From: Bdellovibrionales bacterium | Lineage (GTDB): Bacteria; Bdellovibrionota_C; UBA2361; RFPC01 | Reading direction: 5' to 3' | Assembly: GCA_020434495.1 (NCBI GenBank) | Contig: JAGRAT010000004.1 | Span: forward strand, 1 to 36,723 | DNA length: 36,723 nucleotides | Shown: positions 7,988-11,567 of the stretch, one piece after another | Layout: every line of letters begins with the position of its first letter | Position numbering within the stretch: position 1 is the first letter of the stretch | Notes under the pieces: model-generated | What the model was told of the DNA's origin: nothing | Database searches by the model: none | Seen by the model: the letters and a program-made list of their open reading frames with translations, nothing else | Program-made: the position numbers and the translations under genes

Positions 7988-8142
7988 TCTCTAACTGATT
8001 GATTTTTTGTAATTTTTCGGTCGCAGTCCAGGGAGTCGAAAAGGGCTCTCGACAGGGCTGCTTGACCTCATGATTTTCATTAGAGCTGCCGATAGATCCT
8101 ATGGGAGTAGGCTTCACAGTTTCAGGTGAGCTTTTAGGCAGC

Positions 8143-9420
8143 ATGAGTCTTATTGCAGACAAGTACGAAGTCGTTCGTAAACTCGGCGAAGGGGGTACCG
8201 GTCAGGTGTACCTCGTCAAGCACCGCGACTTGAATGTTCACTACGCCCTGAAGTTGTTGAACCATTCCTTTCTTCACGATGAACGGTTCATCGAACGGTT
8301 CAAGAAAGAAGCGTCGCTTCTCCTCCGATTCAGTCATCCCGGTATTACCCAGTTGCGAGACTTCGGTCGAACTGAGGAAGGGATGTACTATATGGCGATG
8401 GACTACTGTGATGGGGTTCCGCTGAAGTATCAGCTCGATTCTGAAAGTTTCTTTTCTTACGAAGACGCTCTTCAAATTGCGATTCAAATCTTAGATGTTC
8501 TTGAAGCTGCTCATACGCAAGGAATAGTGCACGGGGATATAAAGCCCGAGAATATCATGCTTGAGAAAATGGCAGAGGATGACATTCGAATTAAGGTCCT
8601 CGACTTTGGAACTGCGGTATTAAAGCAGCAGTTTGCAGAGGAAGAGGGGGCTGTTTTTGGAACTCCTTGCTACATGTCTCCTGAACAAGCTGCAGGAGAA
8701 GTAACCCTCGATCAGCGGTCTGATATTTATTCTCTCGGAGTTGTCCTCTATGAGCTACTTACCGGACATGTACCATTCGAGGGGGATACTGTTGTTCAAA
8801 CATTACTCCTTCATCTTACCCAACCATTGCAGTCACTATCGAACTACTACGGGGTCCCAAGAGAGATAGAAGAAGTTGTTTTTAAGGCCCTTGAAAAGAC
8901 CCCGCAGGCTCGTTACCGAACTGCTCGGAAGTTTCGAGAAGCATGTGAAAAAGTACTTCATGAATTGGCACCGGGAACGGCTCCCAAAGCGGCCTCTGTT
9001 GCAAAGGTGCAGAGTGCGACAGTTGAAGAAGAAGATACTGATGCTCCAGAGGAGAAGCGCACGAAGATCCTTTTTCTTGATGATGACGAGATGATTCTCA
9101 ATATCATGCAACACGTCTTTGAGAAGGAGGGATACGAAGTGTTTACTGCCCTCGATTGCTCGTCAATTCACGATTACCTTTTTGAAGAGGGTATTGAACT
9201 TTTGGTAAGTGATGTGCAGATGCCAGGTCTTCCAGGCACCAAAGTCTGCCGTTTATTAAAGAAGTCGATGAAAGACTTAAAGATTATCCTATTCTCTAAT
9301 ATTCCTGAGCGTGATCTTGAGAAGCACTCAGAAGAGAACATGGCAGATGGTTGGATGAGTAAGCAACGAAAGCCGGAAGATTGGCTTTTAGAAATCCGCC
9401 GCGTCCTCGGGACATCCTAA
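8143..9420 (+). CDS. Ser/Thr protein kinase with C-terminal response-regulator receiver domain
   Basis: 425 residues from ATG 8143 (MSLIADKYEVVRKLGEGGTG); an in-frame ATG at 8101 would add 14 non-family residues. Hanks-type kinase motifs: P-loop GEGGTGQV at 15-22, lysine in YALKLL, catalytic loop HGDIKPEN at 130-137, DFG at 154-156, and APE-equivalent SPEQ. The usual HRD arginine is glycine, making it a non-RD kinase that may not need activation-loop phosphorylation. After a Glu-rich linker, a receiver domain starts near residue 308 (KILFLDDDEMIL), with acidic pocket D313-D315 and phospho-acceptor D357 in VSDVQMPG. No membrane segment is present. It probably integrates phosphorelay input with kinase output. 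It lies downstream of flgM; a functional link is unproven. Confidence 0.93.
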   Translation: MSLIADKYEVVRKLGEGGTGQVYLVKHRDLNVHYALKLLNHSFLHDERFIERFKKEASLLLRFSHPGITQLRDFGRTEEGMYYMAMDYCDGVPLKYQLDSESFFSYEDALQIAIQILDVLEAAHTQGIVHGDIKPENIMLEKMAEDDIRIKVLDFGTAVLKQQFAEEEGAVFGTPCYMSPEQAAGEVTLDQRSDIYSLGVVLYELLTGHVPFEGDTVVQTLLLHLTQPLQSLSNYYGVPREIEEVVFKALEKTPQARYRTARKFREACEKVLHELAPGTAPKAASVAKVQSATVEEEDTDAPEEKRTKILFLDDDEMILNIMQHVFEKEGYEVFTALDCSSIHDYLFEEGIELLVSDVQMPGLPGTKVCRLLKKSMKDLKIILFSNIPERDLEKHSEENMADGWMSKQRKPEDWLLEIRRVLGTS

Positions 9421-9460
9421 GTAAGACTATACTTCCAAACCACATGTAGAGTTTGACTTT

Positions 9461-9500
9461 AAACACTGAGGACACAGGGCCGCTTCGCTACCACAGAGGA
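9461..9500. repeat. Left terminal inverted repeat of the 412-bp element
   Basis: Forty bases containing GACACAGGGCCGCTTCGCTA and ending CCACAGAGGA. It pairs with 9833-9872 at 39 of 40 positions; the single mismatch is at 9467. The CACAGAGGACACAG style of sequence recalls, from memory only, dispersed intergenic repeats in other bacteria. Confidence 0.85.
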
Positions 9501-9524
9501 TTGGTTCTTCGATAGTGGACGTTC

Positions 9525-9640
9525 ATATTTGTGAGGAGGTCTTTCCCTCTACGTCCTCGGCAAGAATTTCTTTCTTAGTAGCAGAGATAGCTTGGTGGCT
9601 TGCCTGCGGATTGTTTCGGAAAAAACCTCCCCACAAATAT
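9525..9640. repeat. Internal inverted repeat A
   Basis: 9525-9546 (ATATTTGTGAGGAGGTCTTT then CC) pairs with 9618-9640, imperfectly (about 20 of 22, plus one inserted base). Its loop contains a second nested pair, GGCAAG near 9560 with CTTGCC near 9600. Confidence 0.7.
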
Positions 9641-9685
9641 TCGAAGTATCCCTGTGTTGTGATTCGCATCTGTGCGTAATTCGAA
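9640..9685. repeat. Internal stem C
   Basis: TTCGAA at 9640-9645 pairs with TTCGAA at 9680-9685, enclosing ATTCGCA-TCTG-TGCGTAAT, a hairpin with one bulged A. It lies exactly between internal repeats A and B. Confidence 0.5.
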
Positions 9686-9803
9686 GCCGTTTTCAGGGAG
9701 TGTTTTTGGGAGACAGTCCGCAGCCAAGCCACTGAAAGTTGAGTCACAACCAGGAATCTGAGTTCTTGGCGAGGAGTCGGGAAAAACACTCCCTGAAAAC
9801 GGC
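9686..9803. repeat. Internal inverted repeat B (22-bp perfect)
   Basis: GCCGTTTTCAGGGAGTGTTT plus TT at 9686-9707 is perfectly complementary to 9782-9803. The 74-base loop holds nested stems GCCAAG (9723-9728) with CTTGGC (9765-9770), and GTTG-AGTCA-CAAC at 9738-9750. Confidence 0.85.
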
Positions 9804-9808
9804 TGAAC

Positions 9809-9829
9809 GCTATTCATCGGACGAATAGC
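9809..9829. repeat. Internal hairpin D
   Basis: GCTATTC-ATCGGAC-GAATAGC, a perfect 7-bp stem three bases before the right terminal repeat. There is no matching hairpin beside the left terminal repeat, so the element is asymmetric. Confidence 0.65.
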
Positions 9830-9942
9830 AGTTCCTCTGTGGTAGCGAAGCGGCCCTGTGTCCTCTGTGTTTAGACTTAAAACATCTCTCAACCACCGCT
9901 TCTTTCAATTCATCCACAGTTACCGCTAAACTCAAAAATTAT

Positions 9943-10728
9943 TCATAGATTTCCGAGATAAATTCCCTCAATCCACCCAGTACTTTTCTTCATCATGTTT
10001 GGTTTGGAAGCTCTGGTTGTGCTAGGCGGTAGCGAGGTTAGTGGTCCCGCATCAACGTATACAGTTACCGTTGGTGATATTGTTGAAATGGCTACTGAAC
10101 CAGTAAGTGAGATGATATCTACTTGGACCTCCGTTTCGCTTCGCAATTCCTCAATCCAAATATCACCTCCAGAGATGATTGCACTATCGCTAGCAACAGT
10201 AAGTGTCTGAGTTACAGCAAAATACCCATTTGTGGCAAAGAGCGCATTTGCTCCAGTCAGCGAGAGAGTTTTTACCCCGACGTTGAAGCGACTTCTCCAA
10301 AGTTCTGCTACCTGAAGGTTGTTTATCTGGCACGTGGTAACCGCCTGGAGGGCATTGGAAGATGGATAAGTGGATTGAGGATGATTATCTGATTCTGACT
10401 GAAACTGTATAGAGCAGTGCTCCTGCAGAGAGAAGATGGTTTCGACTTGATAAATATCGTTACCACTTCTTGGAATCCTGTAGGCTACTCCTCCAGTCAG
10501 AGTTCTTCCAAGTCTTGTCACCGTTTCACGATGTATCGTCTCGCCATCGAATGGGATTAACAGCTTCTCTAACAAGCTTGATCGGAGTTGTTCGCCAAAT
10601 TTTTGATGTTGAGCAAGTTGAAAGGTGGAACGGACCGTGGATGCAGTGCTATTCCCAAGGACCATGAGTAGAGTGAGAATAACGATAAGGCAGATTGAGA
10701 GATTTCCTCTTTCCCGTCGTGTCACCAT
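9943..10728 (-). CDS. PilX-like minor pilin-operon protein
   Basis: 261 residues from ATG 10728. The N-terminus is a short basic leader (MVTRRERGN) followed by a hydrophobic helix (LSICLIVILTLLMVLGNSTA), the pattern of PilX/GspK-type minor pilins (RGaaLlisLiiLlvltllg). The middle and C-terminal part is rich in short beta-strand-like repeats (LSLTGANALFATNGYF, LTVASDSAIISGGDIWIEEL), as in PilX-family bodies or beta-helices. It is the last gene of four overlapping minus-strand genes and overlaps the previous one by seven bases. The identity rests mainly on position and N-terminus; the body is not recognisable to me. Its 3' end abuts the multi-hairpin element. Confidence 0.6.
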   Translation of the reverse strand: MVTRRERGNLSICLIVILTLLMVLGNSTASTVRSTFQLAQHQKFGEQLRSSLLEKLLIPFDGETIHRETVTRLGRTLTGGVAYRIPRSGNDIYQVETIFSLQEHCSIQFQSESDNHPQSTYPSSNALQAVTTCQINNLQVAELWRSRFNVGVKTLSLTGANALFATNGYFAVTQTLTVASDSAIISGGDIWIEELRSETEVQVDIISLTGSVAISTISPTVTVYVDAGPLTSLPPSTTRASKPNMMKKSTGWIEGIYLGNL

Positions 10729-11567
10729 TTCGCTGCCTTTCCTCTGTAAGCTTGCAAGAGCATTGCGTCAGGTGAACGTCGGCTCAGTACGTTTTGAACT
10801 TCGAAGTGGAACGGCGCGGCATCTTCTTCAAACAAGAGATCGAGGTTGAGAGTGTAGAGGCCAGCCGGAGAGGTTTCTCCAGCTATTGAGAGCAGGGGAG
10901 CTGCAGAGCGCATAGGTTGGTTCTCGACATCTCTATCCCCAATATGTTGTACGTAGCGGAGAGATCCTTCTTGGCTCACGTAGATTGTTGAGAGGGATAC
11001 TATAGGCAGGATAAATGCAGGAGTGGTCACTTCCGTAATGTTTGGTTGATCAAACAGAACACTTTTTTTCGGAATTGATATGGTGGAATCGCGGCATGAA
11101 CCGTGGGTACCGGAAGCTGTGGCGAGCTCCGCTTCAAAGAGAAGGTCAGCTGAGTAGACAAGCACATGTTCATCAGCAGCGACTGTGCCACAGATGACAC
11201 CAAGCTTCGAGCGAAGGAGAGGATTGCTCCTTTTTAGTTGTATTGCCGTGATGGCGTCAGATGCAGGTATCGGGGCGAGGTCGTCGGTCCTTACACTCAG
11301 TGAGTGGAGAGTGCCATCACGAAATGTTATCAATCCATTTTTGTGGATTTGGGGGAGAAGTGGAAGTCTGTGCTCATCTAGCGAGTCAAGAATTTTCGAT
11401 GAGAGATTCTTGACGATCATTGCCCCCTGCATCTGTTCGGAATAGCGAGTGTATGTCTTGGATTGATAAATCTCACCAGAAAGAAGTGTTACCATTGATG
11501 CAGTAACAATCAGGGCAATCGCCATTGCTATCAGTTTTTCAAGGAGCATCGGCACTCTTGACGGCAA
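10722..11567 (-). CDS. PilW-like minor pilin with non-canonical prepilin motif
   Basis: 281 residues if the TTG at 11567 is used; GTG 11555 and ATG 11549 are alternatives giving 277 and 275. The N-terminal helix LLEKLIAMAIALIVTASMVT has the composition and conserved 'LIAMAI' run of PilW/type IV pilins (GFTLIELLIAMAI). However, the residue before the helix is proline rather than glycine, and the glutamate is at +4 rather than +5, so the prepilin peptidase site looks absent or altered. Position, length and overlap with a clear prepilin upstream and a PilX-like gene downstream suggest PilW. One internal cysteine pair (VICGT, GSCRD) might form a disulfide. Family assignment is moderately sure, the start uncertain. 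Confidence 0.62.
   Translation of the reverse strand: MPSRVPMLLEKLIAMAIALIVTASMVTLLSGEIYQSKTYTRYSEQMQGAMIVKNLSSKILDSLDEHRLPLLPQIHKNGLITFRDGTLHSLSVRTDDLAPIPASDAITAIQLKRSNPLLRSKLGVICGTVAADEHVLVYSADLLFEAELATASGTHGSCRDSTISIPKKSVLFDQPNITEVTTPAFILPIVSLSTIYVSQEGSLRYVQHIGDRDVENQPMRSAAPLLSIAGETSPAGLYTLNLDLLFEEDAAPFHFEVQNVLSRRSPDAMLLQAYRGKAAKW

Follow-up and report, generated by a model that had tools for sequence, protein, structure and literature searches.

Insertion sequences of the IS66 family have GTAA ends, 8-bp target duplications and the genes tnpA-tnpB-tnpC. Miniature inverted-repeat elements (MITEs) and REP/REPIN/BIME repeats are small, gene-less, intergenic, palindromic and dispersed, and use proteins provided in trans (PMC3116915, PMC2817692, PMC3733652). 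Two further kinds of folded element have been described in the context of mobile DNA: the attC site of integrons, a long, imperfectly paired hairpin in which extrahelical features are fixed and the arms compensate each other (PMC3053210), and HEARO, the omega RNA of IscB, a structured element carried by mobile elements (PMC9755519). Here we describe a palindromic element from a window of 36,723 nt (the whole stretch of DNA analysed, one contig of a Bdellovibrionales bacterium), the interior of which is formed by an inverted pair of hairpin units belonging to a separate family in the phylum.

Architecture of the palindromic element

The element is situated between two genes with convergent stops at 9420 and 9943. 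The left neighbour, ending at 9420, is a kinase/response-regulator gene (8101-9420, a serine/threonine kinase domain fused to a response-regulator receiver domain), and the gene with its stop at 9943 is part of a pilin-like block. A preliminary description had placed a 412-bp element at 9461-9872; the element is real, but as pairing of its arms continues for one more base at either end, its proper extent is 9460-9873 (414 bp). The 40-bp terminal inverted repeats were reproduced (39/40), and longer arms of 60 nt (9452-9511/9822-9881) match at 85%. The imperfect inner repeat is present (9525-9547/9618-9640, 23 nt, 87%), as is the perfect one (100%), which at 23 bp is 1 bp longer than the 22 bp first given (9685-9707/9782-9804); the pair of TTCGAA motifs (9640-9645 and 9680-9685) and the 7-bp hairpin (9809-9829) were recovered by direct reading. 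The element was rightly said to hold no gene: the open reading frame of 105 aa on its minus strand has no Pfam match. The features are as follows, with the strand where one applies.

9455-9459: GACTT, left copy of a putative 5-bp target-site duplication (direct reading)
9460-9500, plus strand: left arm TAAACACTGAGGACACAGGGCCGCTTCGCTACCACAGAGGA, a CACAGAG-type repeat with relatives elsewhere in the window genome (G000) and in genome G005
9519-9648, plus strand: left hairpin unit (outer stem, core and flanking TTC/GAA)
9535-9631, plus strand: left unit core (match to model R2, 82.7 bits)
9525-9547, plus strand: 5' arm of the variable outer stem of the left unit, pairing with 9618-9640 (arm-swap test)
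9618-9640, plus strand: 3' arm of the same stem (arm-swap test)
9640-9685: palindrome centre, limited by the two TTCGAA (direct reading)
9677-9812, minus strand: right hairpin unit, inverted relative to the left unit
9696-9793, minus strand: right unit core (match to model R2, 70.0 bits)
9685-9707: arm of the perfect 23-bp outer stem of the right unit, pairing with 9782-9804 (arm-swap test)
9782-9804: other arm of the same stem (arm-swap test)
9809-9829: accessory 7-bp hairpin GCTATTC/GAATAGC
9833-9873, minus strand: right arm, a CACAGAG-type repeat, inverted copy of 9460-9500
9874-9878: GACTT, right copy of the putative target-site duplication (direct reading)

Folding of both strands bore out the proposal that the self-complementarity exceeds chance, with z about -16 on each: the plus strand folds at -222.1 kcal/mol, where shuffled sequences average -132.0 (z -16.1), the minus strand at -212.4 kcal/mol (z -16.7), and DNA parameters give z -15.8. 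None of the shuffled sequences folds as well as the element. The whole element is one long imperfect palindrome with halves that are inverted homologues (152/223 columns identical), and its plus strand can form one long hairpin because the right half is the inverted homologue of the left; aligned without the 40-bp arms, the halves score 30.5 versus a shuffled maximum of 7.5. In the interior, one hairpin unit of approximately 130 nt occurs twice, head to head, in copies that have diverged strongly (49% identical). The repeats listed in the preliminary description were all found, but it missed that the inner inverted repeats are two copies, in opposite orientation, of one homologous unit.

In each unit, an outer stem of about 23 bp, which varies in sequence but keeps its complementarity, leads into a conserved irregular core, TCC.C.GNCRAG/CTYGNC.G.GGA, in which one mismatch and one bulge are fixed. 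In each half, a stem of 22-23 bp closes around the conserved segment common to both, TCCTCGnCAAGAA...GTGGCTTGnCTGCGGA. Where n pairs with n in this segment, one half has G-C and the other C-G, so that the element itself contains a compensatory change. The accessory hairpin (9809-9829) has no counterpart in the left half, where the matching stretch is diverged. Since the arms are alike at 39/40 positions whereas the two units are only 49% identical, arms and units differ either in their histories or in their constraints.

Relatives of the hairpin unit

A first covariance model, derived from the two window copies alone, detected 21 copies in the metagenome-assembled genome (MAG) CC_bin8 (JALEGQ; G001) of the same genus, and one weak match in G032, a genome from another family of the phylum. 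The refined model R2 matched 22 copies in CC_bin8 and three in G032, two of the latter new to the model, and found no units in the other 380 of the 383 genomes searched; the phylum is represented in this analysis by 46 genomes only. The copies in CC_bin8 are dispersed across 17 contigs. An odd single-copy palindrome can thus be resolved by means of a model built from its own two halves. In a tree of the units, the two window copies group together (92/91), on long branches flagged as unsure by the tree tool.

No Rfam match at E<=1 was obtained for the window region, and the unit loci of CC_bin8 gave one chance-level match, elsewhere in the loci; plasmid and phage records contained no match to the unit. 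Pattern matches in 85,000 species genomes beyond CC_bin8 were rejected: all were without the complementary outer stem, and in most the core letters were unpaired. Two full-length matches in viral contigs (30.1 and 18.6 bits) were likewise discarded, as they folded no better than shuffles; the former sits within a coding frame.

Contig C50 of CC_bin8 (L040) carries units at 8203-8300 and 11288-11384, in the same orientation, flanking an open reading frame of 925 aa without any Pfam match, a region that adjoins a Schlafen AlbA_2/HATPase_c_4 protein. The units of G032 (L148, L149, L150) lie within a longer repeat, with a downstream flank that is also common to the copies and is unlike the IS66 context in CC_bin8 described below.

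Covariation and the nature of the folded strand

On alignment A4, 98.3% of the cells in the ten-pair core are paired, with 21 two-sided changes compared with 3.9 in shuffles and at most one when the pairing is slid out of register; A4 is model-fitted and takes in two weak opposite-strand matches and one truncated copy, and the two-sided count therefore leans towards structure. The arm-swap test is independent of A4: with 12 representatives, the pairing of the true arms was equalled in 0/20,000 permutations. The arms of the unit thus covary among relatives, a check that the preliminary description had proposed, and every one of the 26 copies read has the same core mismatch and bulge. The unit is a structured hairpin in which compensatory changes keep the base pairs.

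Homogenisation by template switching at quasipalindromes, in which one arm is corrected from the other during replication, predicts free divergence of arms with complementarity kept (PMC7202029, PMC8604942), and could produce complementary arms as a by-product with no need of function. The arms do vary freely among copies while remaining nearly perfectly complementary within each. This process would, however, erase the mismatch and the bulge, both of which the core keeps across two families, and the primary sequence is conserved in the core but not in the arms; we consider this origin unlikely.

The suggestion of a large structured RNA was therefore borne out at the level of structure, by covariation of arm and core, but RNA is not separated here from single-stranded DNA. 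Scored for wobble compatibility, the arm mismatches fit one strand 20:5, a count which includes related copies repeatedly; read on that strand, the mismatch of the core would be G-A and its bulged base an A. The fold energies do not separate the two strands. RNA is slightly favoured over single-stranded DNA as the working form of the unit.

If the working form were DNA, the unit could be a single-stranded hairpin site for a recombinase or a single-strand transposase, resembling attC or the ends of REP/IS200, with the inverted pair representing two sites. An extrahelical base and a mismatch recall the recognition logic of attC (PMC3053210), DNA folding is as extreme as RNA folding, and the unit-carrying genomes CC_bin8 and G032 possess both Y1 transposases and strong integron integrase matches (419-446 bits). 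However, inspection of the units by eye did not reveal RYYYAAC/GTTRRRY boxes at the stem base, and the unit conserves its inner core while its base varies, the reverse of attC. The distribution does not fit either: the integrase occurs without units in genomes G003 and G004, whereas the window genome has units and only a weak recombinase match. Furthermore, the units are dispersed, forming no cassette array, and none occurs in the integrase loci examined. On balance, we regard a recombination site as rather doubtful, although less so than template switching.

Integron integrase matches of about 420-446 bits, against a curated cut-off of 265, were observed in four genomes of the phylum (L204 in G001 C210, L205 in G003 C22, L206 in G004 C421 and L207 in G032 C60).

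Association with IS66 remnants

About 18/21 copies of the unit in CC_bin8 have IS66-end sequence on one or both sides, according to an unscripted reading of the alignment by eye; the three copies without it are two on contig C50 and one on C90. Upstream of the units, the IS66-end sequence reads GTAATGCCCCC...CTTGACAGAG. Some are followed downstream by the tail of an IS66 transposase ending in ...LTPLDWKKA-stop, a match to PF13817 that in several copies is 13 nt from the unit. A scripted comparison of four copies for a second IS66 end yielded nothing convincing.

The window genome has a complete IS66-family insertion sequence on contig C87 (L141, 1069-3383), inserted within an open reading frame and comprising tnpB and tnpC, a 96-aa open reading frame at the tnpA position, GTAATGCCCCC ends and the perfect 8-bp duplication GGAGAGAG. 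It contains no hairpin unit. Since IS66-end sequence adjoins most units in CC_bin8 and this complete copy is free of units, we take the unit to be carried along by a single IS66 lineage. Assignment of the window element itself to the IS66 family was rejected: it ends in TAAACAC...GTGTTTA with a 5-bp flanking repeat, not in GTAA-type ends with an 8-bp duplication. A literature search retrieved no papers on IS66 with structured RNA.

Outer arms and a putative insertion signature

The outer 40-bp arms belong to a family of CACAGAG-type palindromic repeats dispersed in the window genome, with 15 matches there and 27 in G005 (none for the reversed-pattern control in either). Contig C288 of the window genome bears two unit-free palindromes, in which AAACACAG ends likewise face outward and the centre is short; the window element is therefore a palindrome of this type that encloses two units in inverted orientation. 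In G005, the CACAGAG repeats on contigs C24 and C29 (L009, L010, L011) occur in inverted pairs about 77 bp apart, with TTTA ends facing inward, opposite to the window element; at L010 and L011, the pair adjoins another palindrome with the ends GTCATTGCGA...TCGCAATGAC. No papers linking CTCTGTG repeats with MITEs were found.

A perfect direct repeat, GACTT, lies immediately outside both arms. It is a single case, and the fraction of window positions at which five bases match at this spacing is 0.0009 (chance about 0.001). The putative target-site duplication, a feature for which the preliminary description had proposed a check, is exact on both sides of the element, but none is clear at the C288 palindromes. 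If the element is an insertion, the empty site of a close strain would read GTTTGACTTAAAAC, with a single GACTT. In relatives from the genus, the neighbouring protein is only 28-29% identical and a different gene adjoins, so that they offer no comparable empty site.

In CC_bin8, 16 bp separate the end of the orthologous pilin-like block from its convergent neighbour, and no element of this kind lies there, which speaks against an ordinary strong bidirectional terminator, or a palindrome stabilising messengers, between convergent genes. The position between the stops at 9420 and 9943 would suit such a role, and units in CC_bin8 often follow the stop of the IS66 transposase. Nevertheless, no T-run follows the unit stems in the sequences read, and a terminator can do without a conserved irregular core or an inverted pair; we hold this to be the least probable of the alternatives weighed here.

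The whole composite is a single case, in one MAG, a draft assembly that is 82% complete. The preliminary description had reckoned a single-copy element with neither covariation nor a mobility signature to be probably chance-built or decayed; the composite is indeed single-copy in its own genome, but its internal unit is multi-copy in a relative and the unit arms covary. The proposed non-autonomous transposable element draws strength from arms of a dispersed family, the 5-bp flanks, the lack of a gene and the units hitchhiking on IS66 remnants in CC_bin8; the single-copy state of the composite counts against it.

Proposed reading

Taking together the homology of the units, their covariation and dispersal, the association with IS66 remnants and the palindromic arms, we favour, at a probability of roughly 0.5, a composite, gene-less, non-autonomous palindromic insertion that carries a structured, probably functional hairpin and would be mobilised in trans. 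The unit would work as a folded strand, its conserved irregular core, with the fixed mismatch and bulge, may be a motif for protein recognition or tertiary contact, and the long, sequence-free outer stem would only hold the core together. The unit may spread by hitchhiking, on an IS66-family insertion sequence in CC_bin8 and inside a CACAGAG palindrome in the window genome, where a putative transposase would move the composite in trans.

More tentatively, and with odds clearly below even, the unit may represent a new class of structured RNA borne by transposable elements, an irregular-core hairpin directly after the transposase gene which would act in the mobility of the element itself or in the control of its expression, and which a second kind of element would have taken up in the form of an inverted pair. 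Covariation and an irregular core in two families of a sparsely sampled phylum point to a functional folded strand that has no Rfam entry, and the association with mobile elements raises the testable question of whether small repeats and insertion sequences carry hairpins that serve them.

Comparison with known systems

The unit shares with integron attC sites the form of a long imperfect hairpin, the fixed extrahelical features and the compensation between arms; unlike them, it has no R boxes (by eye), its core is conserved while its base is variable, and it forms no cassette array. With HEARO-type RNAs it shares being structured and borne by mobile elements, but it has no Rfam match and the associated transposase is an IS66 DDE enzyme, not IscB. 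In CC_bin8, the units are carried in IS66-end fragments, between the transposase tail and the terminal repeat, whereas the window element has neither IS66 ends nor an 8-bp duplication, and the complete IS66 of its genome has no unit. The window element resembles MITEs and REP/REPIN/BIME repeats in being gene-less, intergenic and palindromic, with 40-bp terminal inverted repeats and no transposase gene. It differs from them in being far longer (414 bp), in enclosing two inverted copies of a separate covarying hairpin, and in that conservation within the unit falls on the core rather than the ends.
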